DNA of 64,000 nt from assembly GCF_003952505.1 (NCBI RefSeq), contig NZ_CP034450.1:4650001-4714000 (forward strand), given 5' to 3'. The translations under genes and the position numbers were made by a program. The notes below the pieces were generated by a model, which worked only from the letters and a program-made list of their open reading frames with translations, did not search any database and had not been told where the DNA came from. Positions 413 through 51,332 of this stretch are shown here, piece after piece. The stretch is from Mesorhizobium sp. M4B.F.Ca.ET.058.02.1.1 (GTDB lineage: Bacteria > Pseudomonadota > Alphaproteobacteria > Rhizobiales > Rhizobiaceae). Each line of letters begins with the position of its first letter. The first letter of the stretch is position 1.

Positions 413-444
413 ACCTGCTTATACCGCGCGCGGCATAAGCAGGT
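413..444. repeat. Palindrome at left junction of RIT element 1
   Basis: Ten-base arms ACCTGCTTAT and ATAAGCAGGT enclose a GC-only core (CCGCGCGCGG). The whole 32 bp is self-complementary apart from one pair. It starts with the 6-bp ACCTGC that recurs at the right end of the element (3742-3747) and overlaps the left terminal repeat. It is a candidate recombination core or attachment site. Confidence 0.8.
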
Positions 445-470
445 TTATGCCGACCGCCGAACTATGCCGA
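439..470 (+). repeat. Left terminal inverted repeat of RIT element 1
   Basis: Its reverse complement matches 3716-3747 with one mismatch over 32 bases. It contains the motif TTATGCCGACCGCCGA followed by CTATGCCGA. Confidence 0.9.
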
Positions 471-569
471 GTGAGCAAGTTTTTACCAACACTTTCCTCA
501 ACGTAGCGGTAGCTGGATCGGCATAGCTTAGGCTCTCTCCGTCGCAATTAGACGCGAAGGAGAGGACAT

Positions 570-1788
570 ATGAACGCAAGTGACTATCTGCAACGCAGCA
601 CACTGTATCGGAAGCTGCTCCACGGGCCATTTGGCGAGTTTGCACGCGTTTATGCGGGCAGATTGTCGGACGAAGGCTTCGGTCGGCAATGCACCTGGCG
701 ATCGTCAAGCCTATTTCGTGAGCTGAATGACTGGCATGTCGGCAACGGGCACGATCTCCAGGATTTAAGCGAAGTTCATGTTGAGCGGTTTCTTGAGCAC
801 CGTTCCAAGCACTGGAGCATCGATTCGGGCACCGATCGGCGCTCCGGCGCTTGCTTGCCGCGTTACGGCAAGAAGGTTTGATACCAACCGCCCTTCCGAT
901 TGAGCGCACGGAGTACGAGCAGATTGTTGATGTGTTCGCGGCTTACCTCACGAATGAGAGGGGGCTCGCCCGCTCGACGGTGGAAAGCCACAAGCTGCTA
1001 TCGCGCCGATTTCTGCAGGAGGTCTGTCCGGCTGGCGCAGATGCGTTTGCAGCGCTCACCCCGGAGATCGTCATCGGTTATGTCGAGCGACATGCTCTCG
1101 ATGGCTCCGCCGACAGCGGCAAGGCAATGTGCGGGGTGGTGCGCGCCTTCCTGCGCTATTTGCATCTGAAGGGCTTCATTTCGGTGGCCTTGGCCAATTG
1201 TGTGCCGTCGATCCGTCGCTGGCGGCTTGCTGGCCTACCAACCTTCCTGCCACCACAGAAGGTTCAGGTGGTTCTCGATGCCTGCGATCGGACCACGGCA
1301 ATGGGCCTTCGCGACTATGCGGTTTTGATGGCGCTGGCCAAGCTGGGCTTGCGCGCCAGCGAGGTTGCCGCGCTCAGTCTTGACGATATCGATTGGCAGT
1401 CGGGCAGAGTCCTCGTCCATGGCAAGGGGCGGCGGCAAGCGATGATGCCGCTACGCCACGACGTCGGTGCAGCTATCGTCGCCTACATCCGGCATGGGCG
1501 ACCCGCTTCACCGTGTCGCCGGTTATTTCTGCGAATGCTTGCTCCGCACGTCGGCTTTGCCTCGCGAAGGAGGCCCTCGAGCGGGCGGGTATTCACGGCT
1601 ATGCGCACCACGGCGCGCATCTCTTCCGCCACAGCCTTGCGACCGACCTGCTGCGGTCGGGGGCCAGCTTTGCCGAGATCGGCCAGTTGCTTCGTCACCG
1701 GAGCATCGACAGCACAAGGATCTGTGCCAAGCTCGACATCGAGAAGCTGCGCGAACTGAGCCTGCCGTGGTCGGGAGGTGTCCAATGA
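570..1788 (+). pseudogene. ritA: RitA-type tyrosine recombinase, frameshifted
   Basis: Three frames must be joined to give one recombinase of about 405 residues. Frame 3 from the ATG at 570 (MNASDYLQRS...) runs to about 850, frame 2 carries the core-binding domain and catalytic Arg (KLGLRASEVAAL) to about 1540, and frame 1 carries the HLFRHSLATDLL motif and C-terminus to 1788. A good ribosome site (AAGGAGAGGAC) precedes 570. The final TGA overlaps the next ATG (ATGA at 1785-1788), as expected for translational coupling in a RIT trio. The two frameshifts separate the catalytic residues, so the protein should be inactive unless they are sequencing errors. Confidence 0.85.
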
Positions 1789-2708
1789 GCCGTCTTCGAA
1801 CAGCGCTCGAGCGCTATGTGGGCATGCGCCAGGGATTGGGATACAAGTATCATGGCCCCGCTCGGCGGTTGTCGGATTTCGTCACTTTTATGGAGGCTTG
1901 CGGCGCCGAGACCGTCACCACGGCGCTGGCGATGAAGTGGGTGACGTTGATCGGCCGACAACCGAGTTGGTCCATCCGCCTGACCGATGTGCGCTGCTTC
2001 GCTCAGCACCTCGCTCATTTCGATCCCCTGACGGAAGTGCCACCTCAAGACGCTGTGTCGCCGGCGCGGCGTGCAAAGCCCTACATCTATACCGATGCTG
2101 AGATCACGGCGCTTCTGGCGGCGGCACTGTCGCTGCCGCCGGCCAACGCGCTGCGTCGCTGGACATATCATTGCCTGTTCGGATTTATAGCGGTGGCCGG
2201 GCTACGCCATTCCGAAGCGCTCGACCTGCTCCGGGACGACGTCGATCTCGACCAAGGTATCCTCACCATTCGGGAGACGAAGTTCGGCAAGTCGCGGCTG
2301 GTCCCGCTCCATGCCACGACGGTCGCCGTGCTGTCGGACTATGCCGCGCGACGCGACGCGCATCTCGTCGCGCCTCGTAGCCCCTATTTCTTTGTCGCCG
2401 AGCAGGGCGGCAGATTGCTGCACCAATACGTGCACCGGGTGTGCTGGCAGCTGTCGCGACAGATCGGTCTGCGGCAGCGGGGGCAGCGCAATGGTCCGCG
2501 GATTCACGATCTTCGTCACCGTTTCGCCGTCCACGCCCTGACCAACTGGTATCGTGCGGGCGAAGATGTCGAGCGGGAACTGCCGGTCCTCTCGACCTTT
2601 CTCGGCCACGCCAATGTTCGCGACACCTACTGGTATCTATCCGCCGCGCCAGAGCTAATGACCCATGCCGCGCGACTGCTGGATAAGCGGTGGGAGGTTC
2701 ACTCATGA
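1785..2708 (+). CDS. ritB: RitB-type tyrosine recombinase (intact)
   Basis: This is a site-specific DNA recombinase or integrase of 307 residues, the middle gene of the RIT trio. An N-terminal SAM-like core-binding domain is followed by a catalytic domain with the first Arg in AGLRHSEAL, a Lys in KFGKSR, the box HDLRHRFAVH, and a downstream GHANVRDTYWYL holding the His and the nucleophilic Tyr. ATG at 1785 is chosen because GGGAGG lies 6 bases upstream and it overlaps the ritA stop. The open frame extends further upstream only inside ritA. Its own stop overlaps the ritC start. It is the only undamaged recombinase in this element. Confidence 0.9.
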   Translation: MSRLRTALERYVGMRQGLGYKYHGPARRLSDFVTFMEACGAETVTTALAMKWVTLIGRQPSWSIRLTDVRCFAQHLAHFDPLTEVPPQDAVSPARRAKPYIYTDAEITALLAAALSLPPANALRRWTYHCLFGFIAVAGLRHSEALDLLRDDVDLDQGILTIRETKFGKSRLVPLHATTVAVLSDYAARRDAHLVAPRSPYFFVAEQGGRLLHQYVHRVCWQLSRQIGLRQRGQRNGPRIHDLRHRFAVHALTNWYRAGEDVERELPVLSTFLGHANVRDTYWYLSAAPELMTHAARLLDKRWEVHS

Positions 2709-3627
2709 GTGCCCCGAACGATCTGGCCGTGCTGATCGAGCGGTGGTTCACCGATCGGCTCATGCGACATCGAGGCGTAAGCTCCAACCATCGCCTCCTA
2801 TCGCGACACCTTCCGGCTCCTGTTTGCATTCGTGCAGACACGCCTTGGCAGGTCTCCGTCGCAGTTGACACTGCGGGATTTGGACGCGCCTTTCATCGGC
2901 GCATTCCTGGAGGACCTCGAGACACTGCGATCCGCCTCAGTGAGGACCCGGAATCTCCGTCTTTCGGCCATTCGGTCTTTCTTCAGATATGCGTCGTTCG
3001 AGGAGCCGGCCCATAGCGCCCAGATTCAACGCGTGCTCGCGCTCCCGAGCAAGCGATGCGACAAGCGACAGCTTCAGTTTCTCACCAGGCCCGAGATTGA
3101 GGCGATCCTGGCCGTGATTACACTCTGCTGTTGCTGGCCGCGCAAACGGGGTTGCGGGTCTCGGAGACGTGCGATGCCTTGGCAAGGGCCGCAAGGAGCG
3201 AAGTACGCCGCTCACCAAGGTTGCACAGCAAGCCCTTCGGGGCTGGCTCAACGAGCCCAGGATGCGGGGTGCAACGGCTCTCTTTCCGAACATGCACGGC
3301 GGCAGGCTGAGCGCCGACGGCGTGCAGGCGCTGCTGAACAAATATGTCGCCAAGGCTCGCGAACACTGCGTCACCCTCCGCTCGAAGCGGGTGTCGCCCC
3401 ATGTTTTGAGACACAGCGCTGCCATGGAGTTGCTGCAAGCGGGCGTCGATTGTTCGGTCATCCCCCTATGGCTGGGTCATGAGGCGATGGTAACGACGCT
3501 GACCTATCTTCACGCACATCTTGAGCTGAAGGAATCCGCACTTGCCAAGCTGAAGCCATACGAACGCGCAAAGGCCGAACGATTTCGACCAAACGACCGG
3601 CTTCTTGCGTTCCTGAACGCCCTTTGA
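2705..3627 (+). pseudogene. ritC: RitC-type tyrosine recombinase, frameshifted with small deletion
   Basis: The gene starts at ATG 2705, coupled to ritB, but changes frame near 2800. It reads LGRSPSQLTLRDLDAPF and RTRNLRLSAIRSFFRYAS, then loses a few dozen bases near 3120-3170 between the Arg motif (LAAQTGLRVSE) and CLGKGRKERSTPL. The last frame to 3627 keeps the box HVLRHSAAMELLQAG and the region WLGHEAMVTTLTYLHAH with the presumed Tyr. The pieces match the RitC family in order. No single product can contain all catalytic residues, so the gene is dead. Confidence 0.82.
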
Positions 3628-3715
3628 GCATGAGAACTATGCCGAATGTCAACGACCGGTTCTTGGTCGAAATGGCGGGCAAAGCGCTTCATACCGCCAT
3701 GATCGGAAGAGGCGC

Positions 3716-3747
3716 TCGGCATAGCTCGGCGGTCGGCATAAACCTGC
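3716..3747 (-). repeat. Right terminal inverted repeat of RIT element 1
   Basis: It is the inverted partner of 439-470. The last six bases, ACCTGC, also occur at 413-418, giving a 6-bp direct repeat around the element. Confidence 0.9.
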
Positions 3748-3885
3748 AAGCTCAATGGTGTCGAACCGCTCGGCTATCTCGCCGATGTCCTCACCAGGAT
3801 CGTCAACGGCCACCCCAACAGCCAGATCGACGATCTCCTGCCTTGGGTCTACATCAACAAGCTCGAGCTCAAGGCCGTGGCCTGA
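3745..3885 (+). pseudogene. IS66 transposase C-terminal tail, different lineage
   Basis: It reads CKLNGVEPLGYLADVL...GHPNSQIDDLLPW...ELKAVA and stop, the C-terminus of an IS66 TnpC. It joins in frame across ACCTGC to the left fragment (MATLINT-C-KLNG), showing that RIT element 1 sits within a tnpC gene. The sequence is, however, clearly a different IS66 subtype from the 36-kb copy, which reads AKLNDIDPQAWLADVL at this place. A short CGCTTAC at 3892-3898 resembles an IS66 terminus. Confidence 0.8.
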
Positions 3886-4163
3886 GAACACCGCTTACCC
3901 TGTTACAAAGGACCTGGGGCGAAAAAAGTCTATCCGTCACTCTGACCACGAACATAAGAGTACCTTCGAATTTAGGGGACACACTCTCCTCCGCAAACAT
4001 CCACCTTTCGGGGCTCATTCCAGCACCCGTGTCAAGCGAAGTGAGGATTTGACCCCCGCATTGCCTCAAGCAAAATGTGTGCCGGTAGTGTCGCTGTTCC
4101 GAATGGTATGGTCAGGCGTTGTCATCCCGACTCGGAGGATGGATGGTAAGGCGGATGTCAGCG

Positions 4164-6029
4164 TCACGCGCCTGAAGCGAGGCCCTCGGCCAATTCCAGC
4201 GCTTGCCGCTCGAACAGGCGGCGGTAGGTGCCGCCGTCGAGACGGGTCAGGGCGGCATGATCGCCTTCCTCGATGATATGGCCGCCGTCGAAGACGAGCA
4301 GCCGATCGAGCGTGCGCACCGTCGCGAGCCGGTGCGCGATGACCAGCGTGGTCCGCCCGACCATTAACCGCTCCATCGCTTTTTGGATGAGCACCTCCGA
4401 TTCAGAGTCTAGGCTTGATGTCGCCTCGTCGAGGATCAGGACGGGCGCACTCGCGAGGAACGCGCGCGCAATTGCTACTCGCTGGCGCTCGCCCCCAGAG
4501 AGCTTCACACCGCGCTCGCCTACCAGCGTGCTGTAACCCTTCGGCAGGCCCTCGATGAACTCATGCGCGCTAGCAAGCCGGGCCGCTTCCTCAATTTCTG
4601 CTTGGCTAGCGCCGGGGCGGCCGTAGCCGATATTCTCGCTGAGTGTCCGGTGAAATAGGACGGGGTCCTGGTGCACCATCGCGATTTGGGAGCGCAGCGA
4701 AGTCTGCGTCACCTTCGAAACATCCTGCCCGTCAATCATAATGCGGCCGCCATTCACGTCATACAGCCGCTGGATGAGCTTTACGAAGGTGGTCTTTCCA
4801 GAACCAGAGGGGCCGACGAGACCGACGCGCTCGCCGGCTTTAATTGAAATGGAGAAGTCAGTATAGATCGGGTGATGGTTGCCGTAATCGAAGTAGACAT
4901 TCTCAAAGTCGACGGAGCCTTCGGTGATCCGGATCGGCTTGGCTCCGGGAATATCAGCTACCCCAAGTGGCTGGTTCTGGATATCGACCACCTCCTCCAT
5001 ATCGTTCACCGAGCGCTGCAGCTTGCGCAAATGCATACCGACCTCGCCGAGATAGCCTTGCACGACAAAGAAAGATGCGAGCACTAAAGCTACGTCGCCA
5101 GGGGTTGCCTGCCCGCGCGACCACAAAATCGAGGCATAGCCGATGACGGAAGCCCTGAGTACAACCAAAGTTAGACCTTGGGCTGTCATGTTGATCGTGC
5201 CACGAAACCAACTCCGGCGCATTCGATGGCGCCACTTGGCGACGACCGCCGCGAGGCGTTCGTCTTCCCGCGCTTCCGCGCCGAAGCTCCTGACGACCGC
5301 GTTGCAGCTGATTGCATCCGCGAGAGAACCGCTGATCCGTGTGTCGCAGCTGTTCGCCAGAGTCGCCGCCGGTGCCACGTAGCCGAGCGACAATGCGAAG
5401 GTGAGAGCGACATAGAAGAGCGACCCGCTGCCGACAATCAGACCCATCATCGGCCAGTTCCAGCCGAGCAGCGCGGTCGACCCTATGAGGATAAGAAGCG
5501 ATCGGAACAGCTCGTTCAATATTGTGTAGTTCATCAGGTCGAGCGCCCACATTCCGCGGGAGATCTTGCGTACAGTCGAACCTGCGAAGCTATTTGCATG
5601 CCAGGCTGTCGAAAAGCGCTGGACGCGATGGAATGCTTCTCCCGCCACATCCGACATCATCCTCAGCGTCATGTGGTTGATCCCCATGAAAGTGACGTGT
5701 CGCGTCACGACGGCACCGAGTGTGATTGCAACCAGCATGAAGGAGGCTGTAAGCGTTGGATCCCAAGCTGTGACTTTCGTCGTTGAAGCGCGGGCCACAG
5801 CATCGACGAGACGGCCCGAGTAGAGCGGCGTCAGCACGTCTGCCAACGCGGAGCCTAGGATCGCGGTCATGATGATCACGAGCCGGGCTGGCTCCCTGGT
5901 CCAGTGGCGGACAGTGAAGGCGAGAACGCTGCAAAAAGCGCTGTCGCGTAAATCACGAAGAAAACGGGTCATGCCTCTAGATCGGCGCACCGACGCTCCC
6001 CAACAAAGCCTTGCGTTCTGATGTGGCAC
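4164..6029 (-). CDS. ABC exporter, fused membrane and ATPase domains
   Basis: This is an ABCB/MsbA-type half-transporter that forms a homodimer in the inner membrane and exports a hydrophobic or amphipathic substrate. The N-terminal half holds about six transmembrane segments (residues ~45-330). The C-terminal ATPase has Walker A GPSGSGKTT (406-414), signature LSGGERQ (from ~510), Walker B VLILDEAT (~530) and a switch His in IAHRLATVRT. The length (621 aa from a GTG at 6029) is normal. An ATG at 5972 (MTRFLRDLRD) gives 602 aa and is an equally likely start. A 21-bp palindrome lies about 200 bp upstream. The substrate cannot be told from sequence. The nearest metabolic genes are the amidase, the methyltransferase-like gene and the ATP-grasp ligase, separated by IS debris. 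Confidence 0.88.
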   Translation of the reverse strand: MPHQNARLCWGASVRRSRGMTRFLRDLRDSAFCSVLAFTVRHWTREPARLVIIMTAILGSALADVLTPLYSGRLVDAVARASTTKVTAWDPTLTASFMLVAITLGAVVTRHVTFMGINHMTLRMMSDVAGEAFHRVQRFSTAWHANSFAGSTVRKISRGMWALDLMNYTILNELFRSLLILIGSTALLGWNWPMMGLIVGSGSLFYVALTFALSLGYVAPAATLANSCDTRISGSLADAISCNAVVRSFGAEAREDERLAAVVAKWRHRMRRSWFRGTINMTAQGLTLVVLRASVIGYASILWSRGQATPGDVALVLASFFVVQGYLGEVGMHLRKLQRSVNDMEEVVDIQNQPLGVADIPGAKPIRITEGSVDFENVYFDYGNHHPIYTDFSISIKAGERVGLVGPSGSGKTTFVKLIQRLYDVNGGRIMIDGQDVSKVTQTSLRSQIAMVHQDPVLFHRTLSENIGYGRPGASQAEIEEAARLASAHEFIEGLPKGYSTLVGERGVKLSGGERQRVAIARAFLASAPVLILDEATSSLDSESEVLIQKAMERLMVGRTTLVIAHRLATVRTLDRLLVFDGGHIIEEGDHAALTRLDGGTYRRLFERQALELAEGLASGA

Positions 6030-6036
6030 GCATCAT
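5977..6036 (-). CDS. Possible 19-residue leader ORF upstream of the ABC exporter
   Basis: Two adjacent ATG codons (6036 and 6033) follow a strong purine-rich ribosome site (GAGGAAAGGAAAGC). The frame reads MMRATSERKALLGSVGAPI and stops at 5977, 4 bases before the ATG at 5972 of the exporter. It overlaps the longer GTG-started version of the exporter in another frame. If the exporter starts at 5972, this would be a translationally coupled leader or a small peptide gene. No family is recognised, and it could be chance. Confidence 0.3.
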   Translation of the reverse strand: MMRATSERKALLGSVGAPI

Positions 6037-6224
6037 GCTTTCCTTTCCTCGTTCGAGTGTCACCACATCGCGGGCCGGCAGTTCCTGTCCTTCACTACCA
6101 CGCAAGCACAAATCATGCCGATGGACAGGAGCTGCCCCCAAAAGACCTTCGGCTTGTACTTCAATGGGCTGTCGGGCAAACAGCAAGCCTCCATGTCGGA
6201 TAGAGCCGTGTTGGAAACCTCACA

Positions 6225-6245
6225 AAACGACAGTAACTGTCGTTT
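6225..6245. promoter_or_regulatory. Perfect 21-bp palindrome, candidate operator of the ABC exporter
   Basis: Arms AAACGACAGT and ACTGTCGTTT are separated by a single A. It lies in the gene-free stretch upstream of the exporter, the position expected for a repressor site. The rest of 6037-6399 shows no gene that I can support. No regulator gene is adjacent. Confidence 0.5.
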
Positions 6246-6399
6246 GCCGATTTGCCGAGGATTGTCCTTGTGTGATCGAGGGCCGCAACGGCGATATTCC
6301 ACATGGGGCAATAGCGGGAGCGAGTCGCCCTGAAACCAAGCACATCCTTGGAAGGGGCTTGTTCACTGATACGATGGAAATACGGGCTCACGACCTGAC

Positions 6400-7375
6400 G
6401 TGGGGTCCAAGCATCTGATGGAGAACAGCCACGGAAGAATATACCGGTCTCGACGCGTCGATGAAGAGACAGCGATCCGACGTGAGGGCAAGCGCGTCTG
6501 GCGCGGGAAGTGCGCCTCTGATCCAAAGATCATTGCCGAGCTTATCCGTAAGCGGGTGCCAGCCGCCAAACGCGTGGTGTTCGAGACTGGAACCCTTCCG
6601 TCTGGTTCTATCACGCGCTACGCGCGGAAAGGGTGCCAGCGATGCATCGATGCTCGCCATGCCAAAGCTGCGCTCGATATGGCGCCGAATAAGACCGACG
6701 CGAACGACGCCGACGGTTTGGCGGATCTTGCAGAGGTGGGATTCTTCCGTGAGGTGCGGGTGAAAGGTTTTGACAGCATGCTGACCCGCACGCTCGTGGC
6801 GGCACGAACCCGGCTGGTCCGGATCACCACCGAACTTTCCAACCAGATTCGTGGAATCATGAAAACGTTCGGGCCTGCCTCGTTCCTGCACGTAAGGGGA
6901 ACCACGTTCGAGAAGAACGTTCGGCGCCTTCTTATCGACCACGAGGAACTTGCTCTCATCGTGCTGCCGATGTGGAGGCCTGGCGCGGCATTCGCATCCG
7001 TGCCGCCGAGCTTGGGCGCAAGCGTGCAGATGCAAGTCAGAGCGAGGCATGCCGCATGCTCATGTCGATCCCGGGCATCGGCACCATCACCGCAACCTCG
7101 TTCGCCACTGCCATTGAAGATCCGGACAACTTCAAGACGTCCCGATCTGTTGGACCTGGATAGGCCTGACGACGCGCTGCTACCAGTGCGAGAATCGATT
7201 ATGACGGCTATATATCCAGACGCCGCGACGGCCATTTGCGAGGGCTTCTCTACGAAGCGGCGTCGGTTATTCTGACGCGTAGCTCAACCGAGAGCACCCT
7301 GCGGACATGGGGTCTCCAGCTCCGGGAGAGGATCGGCTTCAAAAGAGTAGCTGCCCTGGCTGTCCGAGCGCGAAG
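6400..7375 (+). pseudogene. IS110-family transposase, degenerate
   Basis: Pieces of an IS110 transposase occur in order but in several frames: GLDASMK, then KRVWRGKCASDPKIIAEL, the DEDD-type region KTDANDADGLADLAEVG, then RMLMSIPGIGTITATSFATAIEDPDNFK in another frame, then DYDGYISRR.DGHLRGLLYEAASVIL. Internal stops and frameshifts occur near 6465, 6965 and 7160. IS110 elements lack inverted repeats, so the ends are not defined. Bases 7376-7616 hold nothing recognisable. Confidence 0.8.
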
Positions 7376-7616
7376 ATGCGATTAGATAACCCATTATAAA
7401 AACTCATCGGCCTCCCAACCTTAGGTAGGAGCGTGTATCTTTACGCCTGCTAATCTGCCGCTCGCAGAATCTATCCCAAGGCGTGGGCGAGAAGCGTTGG
7501 GGATGGACGGCTATGGTGGCCAGCGCGTTCGTCAGCCTTTCAGGGGCCGGTGCCCCAGCCTCTGCTGCGAGAGAATTTATGCGCGTGCCAATGATAAGAT
7601 GAGGCATGAGATGCCG

Positions 7617-35912: not shown

Positions 35913-37517
35913 GCGCCCGAGCGGGCCGCCAGTTCCAAGGCAGGCCCTCGAGCCGTGTGATCGGCGTGTCGGCGATGCGGGAGAGGACGTCGGCAAGCCA
36001 GGCCTGGGGGTCAATATCGTTGAGCTTGGCGGTGTTGATCAGCGTCGCCATGAAGGCAGCCCGATCGGCACCTCGATCGGAGCCCGCGAACAACCAAGCT
36101 TTTCTGCCGAGAGCAAACCACGCAGCGCGCGTTCGGCCGCGTTGTTAGTGAGGCAAATCCGGCCATCGCCGAGGAAGGTCGTGAACCCTTCCCAGCGCTT
36201 CAGCATATAGTCGATTGGCTCGGCGACCGGAGAGCTGCGCGACAGTTTTGCCCGCTCTGCCCGCATCCAGGCCTCAAGTTCGGTGGCGAGAAGACGGCTT
36301 TCCTGCCGGCGTCGTTGCAGACGTTCGTCGGGGACGAGTCCGTTGATGTCGCGCTCGATATCGAACAGGGCGTCGACGCGTTTGACCGCCTCAAGCGCGA
36401 TCGGCGAGATCGGCGCGGCGTTCTTGCCACGCTTGGCATTCGTTGCGATGTCGGCAAGCACGAAGAACTTGCGGCGCGCATGCGCCCAGCACAGCGCCTG
36501 GGTCAGCGGACCGGGATCACGGTCCACCTTGAAGAGCGGATTGTAGCCGCCATAGGCATCGGCCTGCAGAATGCCGGTGAAGCTCCGCAAATGACGCTCG
36601 GGATGTTCCTGCCGCCGATCGCGCGAGGCATAGTAGAGGGCCGCCGGCGGCGATGTTCCGCCGAACGGCCGGTCATCCCTGACGTAGGTCCAGATGCGAC
36701 CGGTATCGGTCTTGCCGCGGGCCAGGATCGGCACGGTCGTGTCATCGGCATGTAGGCGGTCAGCACAAGCACATGGGCCTCGATCAGCGTATGCACCGGC
36801 TTGAGCGCCGCGGCACAAGCTCCGACCTGATCGGCCAGTGTGGAAAGGCTGAGGTCGATGCCCTCGGGCATAGCGCTCGCTCTGCCGGTTCAGCGGCTGG
36901 TGCTGGGCGAACTTCTCGAACAGGATCATCGCCAAAAGGTTCGGCCCGGCAAAGCCGCGCGGCGTCACATGGAAGGGCGCCGGCGGCTGCGAGATCTTCT
37001 CGCATTCGCGGCAAGAGAACTTCTCGCGCACGGTCTGGATCACCTTCCACTGGCGCGGGATCACCTCCAGCGTCTCGGTAACGTCCTCGCCAAGCTTGGC
37101 CAGCTTGCCCGAACCGCAACACGGGCAGTTCGCCGGCGCGGCTATGACCACGCGCTCACGGGGCAGATGTTCGGGGAAAGGCTTGCGCGACGGTCGCTTG
37201 CGCTCGAACGCCCTGACCGTCGAGGAGCGTGCCGTCAGTTCCGCCGCCAATTCGTCCTGGCTGGCGTCGGCTTCCAGTTCCTCAAGCTGCAACTCCATCT
37301 GTTCGAGAAGCCGCGCCTTGCGCTCCGAGCGGCGGCCATGGATCTCGCGCTTCAGCTTCTCGATCTCCAGCCTGAGTCGGGCGATCAGCGCATCCGAGTG
37401 CGAGTTCACGGCTTGCGCGCGGGCGGCGACTGCTTGCGCCTCCCGGCAGGCTGCACGCTCGGCGAGCGCGTGCGCACTGGCAAGATCACCAGGAAGCTGA
37501 TCGGCTGCATCGGTCAT
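35893..37517 (-). pseudogene. IS66 transposase (TnpC), frameshifted
   Basis: This DDE transposase of IS66 has about 530 codons from ATG 37517. It shows an N-terminal coiled coil (IARLRLEIEKLKREIHG), a zinc-finger-like CPCCGSGKL, FSCRECEKISQPPAPFHVTPRGFAGPNLLAMILFEKF, DDTTVP (first Asp), RDDRPFGG, LQADAYGGYNPLF (second Asp), CWAHARRKFF and NNAAERALRG (Glu). Two compensating frame changes corrupt residues between SERYA and RLHADDTTVP (36750-36880), and one base is missing near 36095, after which MFAGSDRGADRAAF and PLPWNW-like text continue to 35893. The same missing base is present in the fragment at 3-407. Confidence 0.88.
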
Positions 37518-39960: not shown

Positions 39961-39984
39961 TTGCTTGCGCTGGTACCTAGGAAT

Positions 39985-40110: not shown

Positions 40111-40117
40111 TTTGAGC

Positions 40118-40985: not shown

Positions 40986-41007
40986 GATCTCGGCCATCAA
41001 CAAACGC

Positions 41008-42095: not shown

Positions 42096-42137
42096 TGGCT
42101 TTTCCACACCCGGTGCGAGGCAAGGACGCCTTGCCGT

Positions 42138-43920: not shown

Positions 43921-44466
43921 CTACCCTGCAAGCTGGTGCTGCGGCTGGGAAAAATACTCCTCGCGGGTCATTTCGTAATATCGGCAGAGTTCCCCGCTAT
44001 GCCAGCGGTCGTCGATATAGCGCAGCCCCAGCTTCGTGGCTGCCCGATGCGCCCGTGCATTGCCGCACCCAATGATGCCGACAACCTTTTCCTTGGTACA
44101 GTTTCGTAGGGCGTGCGTGATGGCGAAGCGTGCGGCCTCCGGACCCAAACCTCGTCCTATTCCGTGTTGCGCCAGTAAATAGGCGAGTTCGAGATTATTG
44201 GTGTCCTGGTAGTTGCGCAGGTCACAGCGACCGATGAAAATCGGACCATCATCGGCCTTTTCGTACACCATCCAGGCTCCGAAGCCGTTGGTGCGCCACT
44301 GGGCCAAAAAAAAATTGAGCCACTTGCGCACATCCTCAATAGTTTGCGGCACATTCCTGAAGTTTGCCTCCTGAACCACCGGATCGTTATGCAGCTTGAA
44401 CAATTCGGGCTCGTGTTCGGGCCGCATGGAGGTGAGGATCAAACGTTCGGTCTGATATGTGATCAT
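43921..44466 (-). CDS. GNAT acetyltransferase (RimJ/RimL type)
   Basis: This acetyl-CoA-dependent N-acetyltransferase of 181 residues is intact. It begins MITYQTERLILTSMRPEHEPELFKLHNDP. The acetyl-CoA-binding region is ELAYLLAQHGIGRGLGPEAARFAITHALRN, an R/Q-x-x-G-x-G/A variant (GIGRGLG). The C-terminal IIGCGNARAHRAATKLGLRYID is typical of RimJ/RimL-like enzymes, which acetylate ribosomal proteins or small toxins and antibiotics. ATG 44466 has GGAGA 7 bases upstream. A degenerate copy lies at 7.6-8.1 kb, and both copies lie within several kb of an ATP-grasp ligase, so a role in self-protection or tailoring of the ligase product is possible but unproven. Confidence 0.87.
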   Translation of the reverse strand: MITYQTERLILTSMRPEHEPELFKLHNDPVVQEANFRNVPQTIEDVRKWLNFFLAQWRTNGFGAWMVYEKADDGPIFIGRCDLRNYQDTNNLELAYLLAQHGIGRGLGPEAARFAITHALRNCTKEKVVGIIGCGNARAHRAATKLGLRYIDDRWHSGELCRYYEMTREEYFSQPQHQLAG

Positions 44467-44874
44467 CGGTATTCTCCAATCTGAGCGACTGATGTGGTGC
44501 CAGAGACGAAGCTCCTGCGTGCTGGAGTTCTCGAAACAGCCGAGAATTTGTTGGCATCAAGGCAAGCTCCCTTGATTGGCGAGATGCACAGTCTCGCCCC
44601 AGGCGACTTGGGGCGATGAACCCGATATGCTGCCTTGTGACATCGCCACTACCCACAATGAACGCACCGCTTCACGCGGGTTGCGTCCACGATTGATAGA
44701 ACGGGATTCGCGAGCTCCACATTAGCAGGCGCACAGATGTGCGCACCTACCAAGGTTGCGAGGGTTCTGTCGCAAAATCTGAGACGACTTGTGAATAGCC
44801 ATCTTGGCCTGCCTGCCAGGCGGGGGGATTCGAATTGCTCCGCGATCGACGGGTCAGGGAGTAGGCGTACCTCG
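44467..44874. other. Gene-free stretch
   Basis: Nothing recognisable. The right boundary carries an ISL3-like terminal sequence at about 44875. Confidence 0.4.
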
Positions 44875-45415
44875 GGTCGACGTCCCATCAGGTGGCGTAG
44901 CTTGGCCGTTCGACCATGGCTCAGTGATGGCGGCGCGGACAGCGGCGTGGTCACGAACGATGCCGTTGGCGAAAGATGCGACGAGACTTCTCCTGGCGGC
45001 CTCGATCCACGGCTCGAGATCATCGGCAAGCTTCTTGCGGATCATGGAATGGAAACCGACGACTAGGTTGCGTGCTTCCACCAGCATGGGCACGCCCGCC
45101 TCGACAGCGGCTATCATCACAGTGTCGGCTTTACTCAGATGATCACGTGCAGTGGTCATCAACCGTGCGATCGTTCTGGCTGAGGGCACCTTGTGGAGTT
45201 GCTGATCGGATGCCTGCTAGGCGTGTCTTCGTCGCCGTGCCCATTCGCTGACGACGCCCAGGCGTCCCCGAAAGCCCTTTGTCTTCAGCCGCCGCCAAAG
45301 CTCGCTCGCATTGTCGCAGCCCGAGACCCAATGCCCGTCCAGAAAGGGGAGCCAGGCCTCGAGTGAACTCTGCCGAACGCGGAAGATATCGGTCCGCTGG
45401 CCGCGGATTCACGGC
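44875..45415 (-). pseudogene. ISL3-family transposase, C-terminal remnant
   Basis: The reverse strand gives LPFLDGHWVSGCDNASELWRRLKTKGFRGRLGVVSEWARRR in one frame, then IARLMTTARDHLSKADTVMIAAVEAGVPMLVEARNLVVGFHSMIRKK and RRSLVASFANGIVRDHAAVRAAITEPWSNGQ, typical of the ISL3 DDE domain and its C-terminus. A terminus-like GGTCGACGTCCCATCAGGTGG lies at ~44877. The N-terminal half is missing. Confidence 0.78.
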
Positions 45416-45569
45416 GGGAACTCGAGGGGGACGACGGTAGGCCCACGGGACTACCAGGAAGTCGAACTCCGTCGAGACTTTCTTTGTTCTACGTCCGAGC
45501 TCCTCGAAGAGAGGGCGTGGAGGTTACGTGCTGCTGCAGTTTACAGAGCTCGGCTGCCAGGTCTTTCCC

Positions 45570-45755
45570 CTTCGACGATGTCCAGAACAATATTCGCGGC
45601 CGCGGGTGACCGGAAATGGTATAACAGTGAGAATGATCCGACCGGTCCGGCCCTGCTTCAAGCACCTTGTAGACCTTATCGCCGACAGCAGGGCCGGACA
45701 GCGGAAATGAGGTGATGTGAGCCACTTCGCGACCGTTGATGAGATCAAAATAGCA
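45570..45755. repeat. Interspersed ~190-bp repeat, copy B
   Basis: Partner of 34005-34215, diverged but collinear. Non-coding. Confidence 0.6.
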
Positions 45756-45837
45756 TAGCCAGCACAGCGCGCTTGTCGGACGCCCGGCCGTTGAAGAGCC
45801 TGGAGGACGAAAACCGGAGGTTCAAGAAGTCTGCTGG

Positions 45838-46030
45838 CGGTATCGGCGCTCGACGCCGCGACGCTGAAGGTCGCCGGATCTCATCGAGCGCGCGCCCAGC
45901 CTGAAGGTGGAGCCCGTGTCGGGTCCCGGCCAGTACGTCATCTGCATCACGCACTGCAATACTCGCTCCTTCGACACAACGATTAGGATCGCGTTGCCGG
46001 GATGGGCCCCAAGGCTGTCATCCCCTGCAA
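45838..46030 (+). pseudogene. Fragment of a peptide-binding protein gene
   Basis: It reads VSALDAATLKVA, then DLIERAPSLKVEPVSGPGQYVICITHCNTRSFDTTIRIAL, collinear with ALQGGQV...DLIKRVPNLKVEVLSGPEHYCYVMFCDTAPFDNKDLRMAL of the binding protein at 60.8 kb. It is a short internal relic of a further copy of this gene family. The stretch after it up to 46317 includes IS-like debris and the upstream region of the next gene. Confidence 0.72.
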
Positions 46031-46317
46031 TGGACCCGCAGGACGCTGATCCCTTACGACTTCGAAGCGAACAAAGCGCGCACCTATTCGAACGATACTT
46101 CAAGAAACTCAAACACTTGAGACACAAAGCCACACCCTGCGGCTCAACCTCCCGCCCACAATCGTCGCTTATTTGCGCAGGAAGCAAAAATGCGCACATT
46201 TCCTGCGTACGCAGACGATAATTCGCGCAAAGCGGCCCACTCTCGCTGGTACGTTTGCCAAAACTGAGGCCGGATAATCGGCGCCAGGGAACAGAAATAG
46301 TAAGTGAGGAGCATCCA

Positions 46318-47907
46318 ATGTCGCAGGAACTCGACTATCTCAGCCGCCGCGTTGCTGCAGGCCGGCTGAGCCGACGTGAATTTCTTGGCCGTGCGACGGC
46401 GCTGGGGGTGAGCGCCACCTTCGCCAACTCGCTTCTTGCCGGCGCTGCAAAGGCGCAGGCGCCACGAACGGGAGGCATCCTGAAAGCCGGCATCCGGGGT
46501 GGTGCAGCGACCGATAGCCTCGACCCGGCGTCCTTCGTCAGTTCGGTCCCCATCGTCTTGGGCAAGTGTTGGGGTGAGTTGCTGTTGGAAATGACACCCG
46601 ACGGCAGCATCGATTACCGCATTGCCGAGGAAATAGGCTCGTCGAAGGACGCCAAAACCTGGACGATGAAGATCCGCAACGGCATCCAGTTTCACAACGG
46701 CAAGGAGGTCACTTCTCAGGACGTCGTCGCCACCCTGGAGCGCCATTCGGACAAGAAGTCGAAATCCGGCGCACTTGGCCTCCTGAAAGGTATTGAATCG
46801 CTCAAGGCTGATGGCCGCGACGTCGTGATCACGCTCAATGAGTCCAACGTCGATCTGCCCTACTTGCTAACTGACTACCATCTGATCATCCAGCCCAACG
46901 GCGGCAAGGATGATCCTGCCGCCGGCATCGGCGCCGGCCCCTATAAGGTGACAGTCAACGAGCCCGGCGTGCGGCACGGAGGCGAAAAGTTCAAAGACTA
47001 CTGGCAGCCCGGCGAGATAGGTTTCGCCGACCAAGTCGAAATTATCGTCATCAATGACGCCACGGCGCGTATTGCTGCCCTGCAAAGCAACCATGTTCAC
47101 ATCATCAACAGCCTCGAGCCGAAGGTCATCGACCTGCTCAAACGTATCCCCGGGGTGACAATCCAGAACGTTTCTGGACGCGGCTACCTTTACTTCAACA
47201 TGTTCTGCGATACCCCGCCATTTGACAACAACGATCTCAGAATGGCATTGAAACTCGCAACGAACCGCGAGGAAATGCTGGATAAAATCCTTCGCGGCTA
47301 CGGCGCAATAGGTAACGACTTCCCGATCAATGCCGCCTACCAGCTCTTCCCCGAGGACATCGAGCAGCGCGTCTTTGATCCAGACAAGGCCAAGTTCCAC
47401 TATCAGAAGTCGGGCCATAGCGGGCCGGTCCTACTCAGGACCTCCGAGGATGCCTTCCCCGGAGCTGTCGACGCCGCCCAGCTCTTCCAGCAGAGCTGTG
47501 CCAAGGCCGGCATCACCATCGAGGTGAAACGCGAGCCGAGCGACGGATATTGGTCTGAGGTCTGGCTAAAGCAGCCCTTCTCGACCGGCGGCTGGAACGG
47601 TCGCTCGACGCAGGACCAGATATACTCAACCGCCTATTTGTCGACCGCGGCATGGAATGACACGCACTTCTTCAACGAGAATTTCGACAAACTTCTGATC
47701 GAGGCGCGCGCCGAATTCGACCAGGACAAGCGCAAGAACCTCTATCGTGAGATGGCCATCATCGTTCGGGACCAGGGCGGGACGATCGCGCCGCTGTTCA
47801 GCCAAAACATCGACGCGACAGGACCGGGTGTGAATGGGTTCGTGAAGAGCCCTATGCGGGATCTGGGTAATGCCTCCGCATTGGTGCAATGCTGGCTGGA
47901 AGCGTGA
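46318..47907 (+). CDS. Peptide ABC importer substrate-binding protein (family 5), copy 1
   Basis: A Tat-exported periplasmic binding protein of 529 residues. It has a signal with RLSRREFLGRATALG (twin Arg) and an AKA-type cleavage region, then FKIRNGIQFHNGKEVTSQDVVATLERH, IGAGPYKVTVNEPGVRHGG, and an SBP_bac_5 fold to the end (...VQCWLEA). ATG 46318 is chosen for its GAGGAG site; the frame is open upstream. It is about three-quarters identical by eye to the protein at 60.8 kb. Its GTGA end carries the start of a decayed permease gene, so it has lost its own membrane partners and would depend on the permease operon at 56.2-59.7 kb. Confidence 0.92.
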   Translation: MSQELDYLSRRVAAGRLSRREFLGRATALGVSATFANSLLAGAAKAQAPRTGGILKAGIRGGAATDSLDPASFVSSVPIVLGKCWGELLLEMTPDGSIDYRIAEEIGSSKDAKTWTMKIRNGIQFHNGKEVTSQDVVATLERHSDKKSKSGALGLLKGIESLKADGRDVVITLNESNVDLPYLLTDYHLIIQPNGGKDDPAAGIGAGPYKVTVNEPGVRHGGEKFKDYWQPGEIGFADQVEIIVINDATARIAALQSNHVHIINSLEPKVIDLLKRIPGVTIQNVSGRGYLYFNMFCDTPPFDNNDLRMALKLATNREEMLDKILRGYGAIGNDFPINAAYQLFPEDIEQRVFDPDKAKFHYQKSGHSGPVLLRTSEDAFPGAVDAAQLFQQSCAKAGITIEVKREPSDGYWSEVWLKQPFSTGGWNGRSTQDQIYSTAYLSTAAWNDTHFFNENFDKLLIEARAEFDQDKRKNLYREMAIIVRDQGGTIAPLFSQNIDATGPGVNGFVKSPMRDLGNASALVQCWLEA

Positions 47908-47990
47908 ACGGAGTGCTTATGAACTCACCCGTTCTGAGTTGGTTGCCCAGCGCGTCGCGCTGGGCGTTCTGCTAGCCGTGATCCGAACGT
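47904..47990 (+). pseudogene. Remnant of a DppB-type permease start
   Basis: GTGAACGGAGTGCTT overlaps the stop of the binding-protein gene exactly as in the intact operon at 56206. The next codons give VNGVLMNSPVLS, and in a shifted frame LVAQRVALGVLLAVI, matching VNGVLVGSPVLRLIVQRIAQGILLLF. The rest of the gene is gone. Bases 47991-48410 hold no recognised gene. Confidence 0.7.
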
Positions 47991-48410
47991 TGAACTCCAA
48001 GTTCTGGACAATAGCAGGCCATCTCATGTGCATGCGCATGCATTGGCTTTAGACGCTGTTCGATAGCTGTGAAGGCGCGCCAGCGCTTTCTTCACCTGAT
48101 CGATTAGGAGGCGTCCCTGCACGTTATCGCGCCCGACCCAATGACCCAGACTCAGTTCGATGGTTGGAAACGGATTGCTCTCGTCCAACGACGAAACACG
48201 GGATGGTTCAAGAAGGGCGGCGACCGGAAAGCCTTCAGTCGCTGGCTAATCGCTTGTTGATGGCCAGCTACCTTATCCTAAACGCGCCTGAAGCCGGTTC
48301 ACCTTCGGCCTCATCCATAGGTTGGGTCACCGGGGCCAAGGAATCGCTGTCTGGCTCATCCAGCATCCCTTGACGATGCAGTGAGAACGGAAATTCGAAA
48401 GGATCCACAA

Positions 48411-50153
48411 ATGACACCTGCGGCCAATTATACTGAAGCTGACGTGGCGCGCGACATCGGCTACGTGACTATGCAAGACGGAATGCGCGTCGCGTACATC
48501 TCTTACTGCCCCAAGTCAGGCCGCCATCCGACCGTTTTCCTCTATTCTCCCTATGACGCGAGCGCAACTCGTTTCGAAGTTGCGAAGCCGTTTCTAGATG
48601 CCGGCTATGCCTTCGTCGGGGCCAACTTCCCTGCGACTGGTTCTTCGGAAGGTATCCTGGAAACATGGTTCGACCGGAAAGAGGGACTCTATGGTGCGGA
48701 AGTTGTCGAATGGATTGCTAAACAGCCTTGGAGTAGTGGCAATGTTGGGATGGTTGGCAATTCATCTGCGGCCTCGGTTCAAATGTGGGTCGCGGCAGAA
48801 CAGCCGCCTCATTTGAGGGCCATCGTAGCGTCCGGCATGTTCGACGCCTATGAGTGGATTTACCAAGGCGGAATGCTACAACTTTACAGCCTAAAATGGG
48901 CTTTTACCAGTCAGTTCATCAGTCAGGCCAGCGGAGTGAGTGACCGGATAAAAGCGGGAGATACGGAGTGTTCTGCGATTTGTGGGAGCGACCGGCAGGT
49001 CGTCAAAAATTCATTCTACAACGAAATACGAAGACATCCACTAAATGATGAGTGGTGGGATTCGATCTATTTGGCGCGCAAAGAGGTGGCCGGCAAGATC
49101 CGAGTACCCACTATGCTTATTGGCGCTTGGCAGGATCGCTATGCCGTAAGGGAAAGCGCTCGCGTAATGACTCAATTAATGCCGAGCGTACAGCACAAGA
49201 AGCTTGTCCTGATCGACGGCGATCACGGAGGGACCGGAGCACTTGGGCCACGAGCTCCTCTGCTTGTCGACAATGAGCGGATGAAGTTCCTCGACCGTTG
49301 GGTGAAGGGCGCTAAGAATGGAATTGAAAATGAACCTCCAGTAACTGTTTACTGGGAAGCCTGGGAGCCCGAAGGAGATCCCAAGAAGCAGGTTGCGGGT
49401 TGGGTTACACACCACAAGGCTTGGCCAGAACCGACCGTCGAGCGTCGCTCCTACTATCTCACGGCCGACGCCAAGATATCGCCTGACAAACCCGGTGCCA
49501 CCCCTTACGAGGGCGCTCGCGCGTACCTCTACCCGACGGGAGCAGAACTCTATGGAAACAATGAGCAATTCGCGGCTAAGCCATATCAGCAGGGCGTGTT
49601 GAACTACAGGACGGACGCGGCCGCCTCGGATATGACGCTACTTGGAAGCCCGCAAGTGACCTTCTACCTCAGCATTGACGATGGGGATGACACAGACCTA
49701 GAACTAACATTGAAGGACGTCGGCCCTGACGGCAACGTACTCTTCCTCCAATCGGGCCAACTGCGCGCGTCCCTTCGCGCTATCGATGAACAGCGGACCT
49801 CTTCGGACGAAATCGTTCATCTATTCCGTGAACGCGAAAAACTCATGCCGGGTAGAATATATGAGATAAAAATGTCGATCTCGCCGATTGGTCACGTAGT
49901 CCGAGAAGGGCATAGCCTTGAGCTAACCATCGGCGCTCCCAACCCTATCATCAAACAATCCATCGGCAGCTTTCCAATTGGTGCCGCATCTATTAACAGG
50001 GTCCATCACTCGGAGAAGTATCCCTCAAGCATCGTCTTGCCCATAATACCCGGGGCGAAGGCCCAAGCGCCTGCGCCCGAACGTGGCATACAGCGAGCTA
50101 AACCTTGCCGAAAAGAAACTGAATTTGAGCCCGGCGGGCTGCCGACTCGTTGA
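48411..50153 (+). CDS. CocE/NonD family (X-Pro dipeptidyl-peptidase-like) hydrolase
   Basis: A serine hydrolase of 580 residues with a peptidase S15 alpha/beta-hydrolase domain (VFLYSPYDAS, FPATGSSEGI, nucleophile region VGMVGNSSAAS with Ser118/Ser119, an acid-bearing TMLIGAWQDRYAVRES, and His in LIDGDHGGTG), followed by a C-terminal jelly-roll PepX_C domain (SYYLTADAKISPDKP, LLGSPQVTFYLS, IYEIKMSISPIGHVVREGHSLELTI). The usual nucleophile elbow GxSYxG is GNSSAA here, a notable variant. No signal peptide is seen. ATG 48411 with AAAGGA upstream is preferred over GTG 48381. It lies among peptide-transporter genes and may cleave an imported acylated peptide or ester. Confidence 0.86.
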   Translation: MTPAANYTEADVARDIGYVTMQDGMRVAYISYCPKSGRHPTVFLYSPYDASATRFEVAKPFLDAGYAFVGANFPATGSSEGILETWFDRKEGLYGAEVVEWIAKQPWSSGNVGMVGNSSAASVQMWVAAEQPPHLRAIVASGMFDAYEWIYQGGMLQLYSLKWAFTSQFISQASGVSDRIKAGDTECSAICGSDRQVVKNSFYNEIRRHPLNDEWWDSIYLARKEVAGKIRVPTMLIGAWQDRYAVRESARVMTQLMPSVQHKKLVLIDGDHGGTGALGPRAPLLVDNERMKFLDRWVKGAKNGIENEPPVTVYWEAWEPEGDPKKQVAGWVTHHKAWPEPTVERRSYYLTADAKISPDKPGATPYEGARAYLYPTGAELYGNNEQFAAKPYQQGVLNYRTDAAASDMTLLGSPQVTFYLSIDDGDDTDLELTLKDVGPDGNVLFLQSGQLRASLRAIDEQRTSSDEIVHLFREREKLMPGRIYEIKMSISPIGHVVREGHSLELTIGAPNPIIKQSIGSFPIGAASINRVHHSEKYPSSIVLPIIPGAKAQAPAPERGIQRAKPCRKETEFEPGGLPTR

Positions 50154-50329
50154 GCTTAGTGCAGCGGCTGCCAGAAAACTCTCACTTTGGTAACTACATT
50201 TCCTGCGAAACCGATAGGGAACGTAAATCGAATCGTGTTCGGCACGGGAGCAGGTGACCCTTGATCTCCAGAAAGCGCAGGTCTGGCCTACGACGTCGTT
50301 AGCATCTGACCGGACGACCTTGGGGTTGC

Positions 50330-50500
50330 TCTACTTACCCGCACTGGCGATCAACGGGGCGAGGCCGGCGAGGCTTGAGGCCTGCTAGCTAATTAGTAAA
50401 GCGCCAGAAGAACGATGCCGCCGATGCCGAGACGACTGTGATTGGGGCCTAGCGGCCGGAGATGCGATTCGTCGAGCCGAAATCGGAAGAACAGCAGGCC
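50330..50500 (+). pseudogene. IS110-family transposase, 5' part (left of IS21 insertion)
   Basis: LVKRQKNDAADAETT, RPEMRFVEPKSEEQQA, typical of the IS1111 group of IS110 (QKNDAADAEAI motif). The reading continues at 55103 with RAVLFRARQRLVHQRTDLVNALRA after removal of IS21 and one copy of the 7-bp duplication. It has stops and a missing N-terminus. Confidence 0.82.
50494..50500 (+). repeat. Target-site duplication of IS21 (left copy)
   Basis: GCAGGCC, repeated at 55103-55109 directly after the right end of the IS21 element. Confidence 0.85.
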
Positions 50501-50672
50501 TGCGGATTCCGACGTGAAGCCGGCCGCCATTCCGATTTGAAGCCGGCCAGTCATTCCGATTTCATTCCGGCCACCATTCCAATCAAAAGTCGGCCAGTTT
50601 TCGGCACTGAACATTACCTCCTGGGTCAGCAACTTTGACATCAAATGCCCCGCGATGAACGGGGAGATTTTG

Positions 50673-51310
50673 ATGCCGGCAAAGAGAAGGCTGACCATGA
50701 GACAGTTACGACAAATGCTGCGGCTTGCCGGAAGCGGGATGAGCTCCCGCGAGATTGCCGTCGTATTGGGAATAGCGCGCAGTACGGTGCAGGATAATCT
50801 GCAGCGCGCGGCCGCGGTTGGATTGAGCTGGCCCTTGCCGGGCGAACTGACCGACGATGCGCTCGAGAACAAACTCTTCACTCGCAACGGCGTCAAACAG
50901 GGCACGAGAAGACGCACAGAACCAAACTGGGCCGATCTTGCGGTCGAGCTCAAGAAGCCCGGTGTGACCTTGCTCATCCTGTGGGAGGAGTATCGTGGGT
51001 CGCATCCCGACGGTTACGGCTACAGTCGCTTTTGTGAACTTCTACGGGGACTTAAGCAGCGACTGTCACCGACGATGCGCCAGGAACACGCCGCCGGCGA
51101 CAAGGAGGTCCACTATTCCGGCAAGAAGATCCCGATCGTTGATCGAGACACCGGCGAGATTCGTGAGGCGGAGATCTTTGTGGCGGTCTTGGGAGCGTTC
51201 AGCTTCACATATGCCGAAGCAACCTGGACCCACACACTGCCTGATTGGATTGGTTCACACGTCAGGATGTTTCGTTTCTTTGATGGCGTTCCCCGCCTGA
51301 TCGTCCCCGA
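50673..51310 (+). pseudogene. istA: IstA (IS21 transposase), 5' part interrupted by RIT element 2
   Basis: From ATG 50673: TMRQLRQMLRLAGSGMSSREIAVVLGIARSTVQDNLQRA (helix-turn-helix), VGLSWPLPGELTDDALENKLF, ILWEEYRGSHPDGYGYSRFCELLR, FVAVLGAFSFTYAEATWTHTLPDWIGSHVRMFRFFDGVPRLIVPD. It is interrupted at LIVPD and resumes at 54811 with KLKSGVSRASFYDPEINRSYGMMASHYGVE. Confidence 0.9.
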
Positions 51311-51332
51311 TTTTGTCCCCGGGAACAAAATC
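51309..51332. repeat. Palindrome at left junction of RIT element 2
   Basis: GATTTTGTCCCC and GGGAACAAAATC form a 24-bp palindrome with one mismatched pair, between the target motif CCCCGA and the left terminal repeat. Its position parallels the palindrome of RIT element 1 (413-444). Confidence 0.8.

Follow-up and report, generated by a model that had tools for sequence, protein, structure and literature searches.

The genome of Mesorhizobium sp. M4B.F.Ca.ET.058.02.1.1 carries two RIT elements in the 64,000-nucleotide stretch analyzed here (contig NZ_CP034450.1 of NCBI RefSeq assembly GCF_003952505.1, positions 4,650,001 to 4,714,000; hereafter the window), each with three tyrosine recombinase genes (ritA, ritB and ritC) between terminal inverted repeats. 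A palindrome lies beside the terminal repeat at the ritA end of each element, which raises the question of what this palindrome is: a piece of the target, a fixed mark of one element end, or part of a site at which the element recombines. The original prediction for this locus read it as a recombination core, present at the ritA end only, of an element that uses a closed intermediate. Having compared the ends of related elements, we consider it likely that the palindrome is half of a twin attachment site, through which the element inserts either way round into a target that is read in one polarity.

Layout of the two elements and frequency of the palindrome

In both elements, the order on the ritA side is [6 bp]-[20-bp palindrome]-[6 bp]-arm, where the arm is the terminal inverted repeat, and on the ritC side it is arm-[6 bp]. 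We denote the palindrome P, the outer 6-mer D, the inner 6-mer S, and the target halves upstream and downstream of the insertion point X and Y. Both elements are nested inside other insertion sequences (IS): element 1 splits an IS66-type transposase open reading frame (ORF), and element 2 splits an IS21 istA ORF.

413..418, + strand: element 1 outer 6-mer D, ACCTGC, adjoining the X half of the IS66-type transposase ORF
419..438, no strand: element 1 palindrome P, TTATACCGCGCGCGGCATAA, 20 bp, two inverted 10-bp half-sites, 9/10 pairs, element-borne
439..444, + strand: element 1 inner 6-mer S, GCAGGT, the exact reverse complement of D
445..471, + strand: element 1 left arm (terminal inverted repeat)
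3715..3741, + strand: element 1 right arm, an inverted copy of the left arm
3742..3747, + strand: element 1 far 6-mer, ACCTGC, at the bare junction with the Y half (AAGCTCAATGG) of the IS66 ORF
51305..51310, + strand: element 2 outer 6-mer D, CCCCGA, adjoining the X half of the IS21 istA ORF
51311..51330, no strand: element 2 palindrome P, TTTTGTCCCCGGGAACAAAA, 20 bp, 9/10 pairs
51331..51336, + strand: element 2 inner 6-mer S, TCGCAG, complementary to D at 4/6 positions only
51337..51362, + strand: element 2 left arm
54782..54807, + strand: element 2 right arm
54808..54813, + strand: element 2 far 6-mer, CCCCGA, at the bare junction with the Y half (CAAGCTGAAG) of istA

The prediction had described one mismatched pair in each palindrome, and 6-bp repeats with the right terminal repeat abutting its 6-mer; both descriptions hold for both elements, with 9/10 pairs in each P. 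It had also placed a palindrome of ~22-25 bp between repeat and arm. This palindrome is present, but is better read as exactly 20 bp between two 6-mers. In element 1, S is the spacer of a full 10-6-10 core made up of a P half, S and the left arm. The elements measure 3297 bp and 3471 bp from arm to arm, in keeping with the ~3.5 kb of RIT elements, and their inverted repeats including the 6-mers span 33 nt (97%) and 32 nt (91%), in keeping with ~28-34 bp. Reading by eye from the left to the right flank, we found the transposase frame restored across the 6-mer in both cases (AAC ACC TGC AAG CTC and GTC CCC GAC AAG).

We measured the frequency of the palindrome in a register that is independent of P, built from the terminal repeats and the arm motif only (125 loci entered, 77 with a usable terminal repeat, 64 used). 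A 20-bp window with at least 8/10 pairs, centered exactly 16 bp outside the arm, was found at 23 of 52 left ends and 9 of 54 right ends, and no end has a palindrome centered at -15 or -17. The background is 21 palindromic windows in 6238, 12 of which lie at the second symmetric point, -3, which is the center of S. Two of the 32 palindromic ends (L074 left and L075 right) are palindromic stretches of target, not P. A search of 20 RIT-bearing genomes with the P consensus gave 23 matches, against 0 for a reversed-pattern control; at least one match, L221, has no RIT arm next to it and looks like chance. The palindrome is confirmed as a real feature of RIT ends, beyond chance.

The palindrome belongs to the element and switches sides

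RIT loci were collected by RitC alignment in GTDB genomes (80 loci), by RitC and RitB in plasmids (21 regions), and from further genomes. The curated set of 71 loci comprises 50 of the 80 GTDB-genome loci, 8 of 12 plasmid RitC loci, 7 of 9 plasmid RitB loci, 4 of 25 RitB-centered loci (L040-L052 and L170-L181; two further ones are element 1 itself) and the two window elements. It was chosen by eye from the output of a parser that scored arm match, palindrome and palindrome-arm similarity and never used 6-mers or flanks; arms were placed by hand in 11 loci, and ends were left unparsed in L053-L069 (weaker RitB matches) and L001-L039 (flanks too short). Element 2 RitC matches 530 plasmid records at E<=1e-30, and a scan of IMG/VR with the same protein found no relative.

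P lies on the ritA side only in 36 of the 71 loci, on the ritC side only in 13, on both sides in 4 and on neither in 10. In the remaining 8 loci one end is unreadable (P at the ritC side in 4, at the ritA side in 3, bare in 1). Copies within one genome can differ in this respect. Salipiger profundus JLT2016 has four copies with identical 3824-bp bodies, and two of these (L150 and L151, 3824/3824) sit in opposite orientations in copies of the same IS110 gene, with P at opposite element ends and on the same target side. The same arrangement is found in a tyrosine-recombinase gene for L074 and L075, from one Burkholderia genome (3419/3419 identical). L071 and L072, from one Sinorhizobium genome (3411/3411 identical), also have P at opposite ends, the target half being classified for L072 only. 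Finally, the genome of L112 holds two copies cut short at their ritA end, L217 and L218. Their P is on the ritC side and adjoins the same X sequence to which P is joined on the ritA side in L112.

A fixed feature of the ritA end, that is, a single asymmetric core at one end as first predicted, would account for the ritA-side position of P in 36 of the 49 one-P loci, both window elements included. The three pairs L150/L151, L074/L075 and L071/L072 refute it, and 13 of the 49 have P at the ritC side, some of them with bodies identical to those of ritA-side copies in the same genome; we consider this explanation highly improbable. The reading of P as part of a core is supported, and its restriction to the ritA end is not. 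As a separate observation, several draft assemblies (L084, L097, L122, L136 and L139) contain 3.37-3.41-kb contigs that start and end at or near RIT arms and lack P; such short P-less contigs are the expectation for multi-copy repeats in which the side of P varies.

We next turned from element ends to target halves, and classed flanks by their own sequence as upstream (X) or downstream (Y) of the insertion point in IS66 or tyrosine-recombinase targets, with fixed polarity. P adjoins all 31 classified X flanks, and all 47 classified Y flanks are bare; 55 junctions (32 with P, 23 bare) are unclassified, the classes were written after the flanks were seen and the loci are kin, so that these counts express a rule and not a probability. 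What is constant is the target half that adjoins P, not the element end. A frequent RIT target (L074, L091, L117 and others) is the stretch of codons for the H-x-L-R-H catalytic box in other tyrosine-recombinase genes; this motif is also encoded by the rit genes themselves.

The loci without P, or with P at both ends, can be read in the same terms. Six of the 10 P-less loci have two Y flanks (L083, L103, L115, L126, L137 and L147), and the other four (L079, L134, L183 and L188) have one unclassified end, which may be damaged. P stands at both ends in four loci: both flanks of L121 are classified as X, those of L124 look by eye like X halves of istA, and those of L086 and L099 are unclassified. 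Loci of the X/X and Y/Y kind are the leftovers expected from recombination between two oppositely oriented insertions. In L222, P lies at 4400 and the arm of L134 at 7081, ~2.7 kb apart, apparently owing to a later insertion beside the inner 6-mer; L134, counted here as P-less, would then have had P. We found no clear solo P between two X halves among the 23 P matches in 20 genomes, of which 7 were retrieved; in L219 and L220, P is beside an arm, and in L223 it is at a contig end.

In four pairs of loci with an imperfect P on opposite sides (L150/L151, L074/L075, L071/L072 and L154/L156, the last with bodies 3799/3800 identical), P is letter-for-letter the same in the frame of the rit genes. 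Because P can stand on either side of the body in one and the same orientation, it would have lain between the right and the left arm in a closed form of the element. This constant orientation bears on two other explanations. In one, the body flips in place by recombination between the internal core (P half, S and arm) and the bare arm-6-Y junction, with P staying beside X. Such flipping would explain why body orientation varies while P is always at X, and a suitable core does remain within integrated copies, but it predicts that P is reversed in the element frame, and P is unreversed in all four pairs with an asymmetric P. We therefore regard flipping in place as unlikely. The other explanation is a linear mobile form with a palindrome at both ends, one of which is lost at insertion, as the four loci with P at both ends might suggest. 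The two X halves of L121 (and, by eye, of L124; L086 and L099 being unclassified) are explained by recombination between two insertions, the complementary Y/Y loci without P exist, and a constant orientation on either side requires just one P between the arms, which makes a linear form very unlikely.

Empty sites separate P from the target. The empty site of element 2, in a Mesorhizobium plasmid (L167), matches X at 60/60 and Y at 58/60 positions and contains CCCCGA once and no palindrome. The empty sites for L154 (L162-L164) and L156 (L165, L166 and L169), which are Sphingobium and Blastomonas/Sphingopyxis strawberry-notch genes, likewise show one 6-mer and no palindrome. For element 1, the window itself holds an uninterrupted copy of the target:

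35973..36143, - strand: uninterrupted IS66-type copy; X-side 60 bp identical to the element 1 X flank, Y 42/60, 6-mer ACCGCC, no palindrome

An IS66 copy in a Mesorhizobium plasmid compares with element 1 at 59/60 in X and 43/60 in Y, again with ACCGCC and no P. These nearest uninterrupted copies for element 1 are less close than those for element 2. The IS66 gene around element 1 (353-412 and 3748-3807) looks mosaic, with X matching the 35973-36143 copy at 60/60 and Y matching L195 at 55/60. L195, an IS66 copy in the same genome, carries ACCTGC, and the original 6-mer of element 1 is thus ambiguous between ACCGCC and ACCTGC.

The palindrome is part of the element and is absent from the pre-insertion target. 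A palindrome native to the target, which the prediction had named as one finding that would overturn it, was looked for at these sites and is not there. Insertion of RIT elements beside a pre-existing palindrome would fit the presence of P on the same target half at all classified junctions, but the uninterrupted copies (the element 2, L154 and L156 sites and the IS66 copy at 35973-36143) carry a single 6-mer without a palindrome, P is similar in sequence to the arm of the element, and the orientation of P follows the element and not the target when the element is inverted. Taken together, we judge a target-borne palindrome to be practically untenable.

The 6-mers and a candidate twin attachment site

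The original prediction took the 6-bp direct repeats for target repeats. Among the 49 one-P loci with both ends read, the outer and far 6-mers are equal in 26, the inner and far in 17 and the inner and outer in 19; all three are equal in 12 and all different in 11. Because the outer 6-mer equals the far one in just 26 of these loci, and in three loci where they differ the native 6-mer is kept only on the bare side, this part of the prediction is not borne out: on sequence grounds, the 6-bp repeats are not target duplications, and are best read as crossover 6-mers.

Near-identical empty sites of the three informative loci show where each 6-mer comes from. Comparison of L156 with its empty sites identifies the native 6-mer, GCGATC, as that of the bare side, the P side reading GCCATC. 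For L187, the bare-side version matches at 46/46 in each of five listed plasmids (42 records matching), and the P-side version has no match. For L190, the bare-side version matches at 46/46 in three records, and no record matches the P-side version in full, the best reaching 95.1% over 41 bases. A fourth locus, L153, which has P on the ritA side, fits by inference: the 6-mer beside its P is GTGAAG, like that of the other three Salipiger profundus copies, and its bare side reads GTTAAG; an empty-site search for L153 returned its own record only. At the informative loci, the 6-mer next to P thus came with the element, and the one next to the arm is the target's original. Element 1 also prompted us to consider a rewriting model, according to which every insertion regenerates S as the reverse complement of D. 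We rejected it, as inner and outer 6-mers agree in only 19 of the 49 loci and as a different codon from the same class of target can occupy S (L135 and L111, tyrosine-recombinase class).

The two halves of P resemble the arm. In the P-independent register, which involves no selection for similarity, they match the arm at a mean of 7.56 and 7.59 of 10 positions, compared to 2.45 for random 10-mers (32 ends with 19 distinct sequences, the two target stretches in L074 and L075 included). The corresponding means in the curated set are 7.06 and 7.30 (n=64), lifted by selection since a curated P call needed at least 5/10 arm similarity or a perfect palindrome; the flanks there score 2.83 for X (n=64) and 1.71 for Y (n=69). 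The first seven bases of the arm recur at +17 in 39 of the 71 loci. The usual core site of a tyrosine recombinase consists of inverted half-sites around a short crossover. Because the P halves resemble the arms, the arrangement armR-[6]-P-[6]-armL reads as two complete 10-6-10 cores, back to back.

These data suggest the following model. In the mobile, probably circular form, the right and left arms would be joined as armR-[6]-P-[6]-armL, and the junction would hold two mirror-image cores, each with inverted 10-bp half-sites around a 6-bp crossover. The closed junction predicted for Salipiger profundus is CCACCTGATGATAA-[6]-TAATGATCACCTCTCCATTA-[6]-TTATCATCAGGTGG, with one P. A target X-D-Y would be recognized in a single polarity, and either core could be used; after recombination, X would adjoin the P half-site of the core used, and Y the arm of that core. 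With core 1, P would come to lie on the ritA side; with core 2, it would lie on the ritC side, and the gene body would face the other way in the target. The element's 6-mer would end up on the P side and the target's on the bare side if productive exchange mostly involves the strand that is cut at the arm/X edge of the 6-mer. We infer the circular form, the cleavage positions, the strand bias and the role of RitA, RitB and RitC as agents from these comparisons of sequence. A recombination core in an element with a closed intermediate, as originally predicted, still appears to be the best reading, and we lean toward its full form: a tandem pair of mirror-image cores at the circle junction, with a polar target, free orientation, one core left inside the inserted copy and mainly one productive polarity of strand exchange.

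Several points weigh against this model. P is skewed to the ritA side (36 of 49 one-P loci), and the two cores are possibly not used equally. The loci are mutually related, and 30 of the 80 GTDB-genome loci were lost to exclusion (loci cut by a contig end, degenerate, lacking a second arm or with unrecognizable arms). The 6-mer rule is drawn from three informative loci, all three with P on the ritC side, and from what L153 suggests, and it is not absolute: between the right arm and P, L071 has TGCCGC and L072 has TGGCGG despite identical bodies, and L154 and L156 differ by one base in the other 6-mer. A scan of IMG/VR contigs with one exact pattern found no armR-6-P-6-armL junction, and neither did a search of 50 RIT-bearing genomes at up to 2 mismatches, where the sole match was the integrated end of L123. 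The missing junction is weak counter-evidence, because a rare circle would escape such searches, as for SE-6945: in the part of the literature on that element consulted here, its circles are put at ~0.001 per chromosome copy, with no attS reads at 229x coverage (PMC9345347).

The 6-mers also allow a variant in which the same twin-core junction exchanges both strands, by cut-out and paste-in, and the 6-mer pattern arises from heteroduplex mismatch repair or from replication. Spacers do change over time, as the different 6-mers beside the identical bodies of L071 and L072 indicate, and inner 6-mers vary like, and resemble, other codons of the same target class; these two observations together imply that spacers do get replaced. 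Against two-strand exchange, the outcome is the same in all three informative loci, with the native 6-mer on the bare side. We regard this variant as possible, though doubtful.

Related systems, the rit genes and the surrounding insertion sequences

To our knowledge, no described transposon has such a twin attachment site. We found no description in the literature of the 6-20-6 layout, the side switching, the target-half rule or the twin core; Ricker et al. 2013 and Nielsen et al. 2017 may cover part of these. Earlier papers describe RIT elements from Cupriavidus metallidurans, where one trio interrupts an IS66 tnpA (PMC2864759), and report a 28-9 bp inverted repeat with an overlapping palindrome around ritA/ritC, features that fit poorly with core and arm sites of the standard kind (Van Houdt et al. 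2012; PMC3414803). A table in Idola 2023 gives RIT target specificity, empty site and movement as not tested (PMC10214605). The window elements share with the RIT elements of Van Houdt et al. 2012, as far as the consulted part of that paper describes them, three adjacent tyrosine recombinase ORFs in the same orientation, a length of ~3.5 kb and terminal inverted repeats. We class them as RIT elements with a newly resolved, possibly unprecedented attachment-site architecture.

A likeness in mode of action exists to the strand-biased circularizing integrative elements (SE) SE-6283 and SE-6945. In the excerpts consulted, these also use tyrosine recombinases; in their circle, 6 bp separate the inverted terminal motifs, and the top strand is favored (PMC9345347, PMC10214605). 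According to the same excerpts, the incoming 6-mer of an SE element ends on one flank and the target's on the other, as in 3/3 informative RIT loci, where the rule is not absolute; this likeness is one of working, not of membership. The SE circle has one spacer between two terminal motifs (C-6-C'), whereas the RIT junction we propose would have two spacers and an extra inverted pair of half-sites. The SE core genes are given there as IntA, Tfp, IntB and Srap, whereas RIT elements have RitA, RitB and RitC; between the arms we found three frames that match integrases, and the intact relative L150 has just three annotated genes, no profile search for Tfp or Srap having been made. The Tn554 family likewise consists of tyrosine-recombinase transposons with a 6-bp footprint (PMC10214605); it has TnpA and TnpB with a non-catalytic TnpC in place of a third recombinase, and the consulted part of the source mentions no internal palindrome for it. 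The intact L150 has three integrase-fold recombinases and no other annotated gene, TnpC itself not having been searched for. Conjugative transposons of the Tn916/Tn1549 type form a circular junction with a short crossover between inverted repeats and tolerate differing coupling sequences, and they have a single core at the junction, conjugation genes and no known twin core.

RIT elements are common, and the layout yields a concrete mechanism with exact predicted junction sequences. It may explain why the ends looked irregular to earlier authors, and for annotation it means that the element end lies beyond one arm, on either side. The layout would also make RIT elements a natural system in which target polarity is uncoupled from element orientation, and it prompts one to ask how three recombinases act on four half-sites.

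Each window element has three successive frames on the same strand that match Pfam Phage_integrase, in the order A-B-C of RIT elements:

570..1759, + strand: element 1 ritA, broken (ORFs 570-881 and 851-1759, in different frames)
1785..2708, + strand: element 1 ritB, open
2690..3627, + strand: element 1 ritC, broken into ORFs 2690-3016, 2832-3482 and 3169-3627
51467..52776, + strand: element 2 ritA, broken (ORFs 51467-52252 and 51925-52776, in different frames)
52637..53551, + strand: element 2 ritB frame, with a stop soon after the H-x-L-R-H box
53717..54721, + strand: element 2 ritC, open

Intact trios are annotated in relatives, for example L150-L153 and L186. By eye, the catalytic R-H-R-H-Y residues can be seen in an intact Salipiger trio, where all three proteins have the G-x-R box, H-x-x-R-H and LGH...Y; the window copies are broken. 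Because rit genes are broken in both, the two window copies are probably immobile relics. On plasmid pHG1 of Cupriavidus necator H16 (L199, 3345-12833), several complete and partial RIT units are packed together, and one copy has a perfect palindrome, TCATGCCGCTAGCGGCATGA, with complementary 6-mers, on the ritA side; the pHG1 RIT elements are named in the consulted part of a 2010 paper (PMC2864759).

The IS21 host of element 2 is bounded at 50505-50604 and 55000-55090 by inverted arrays of 23-24-bp repeats. These end arrays show 84% complementarity over 76 nt, and appear to resemble the multiple transposase-binding sites at IS21 ends.

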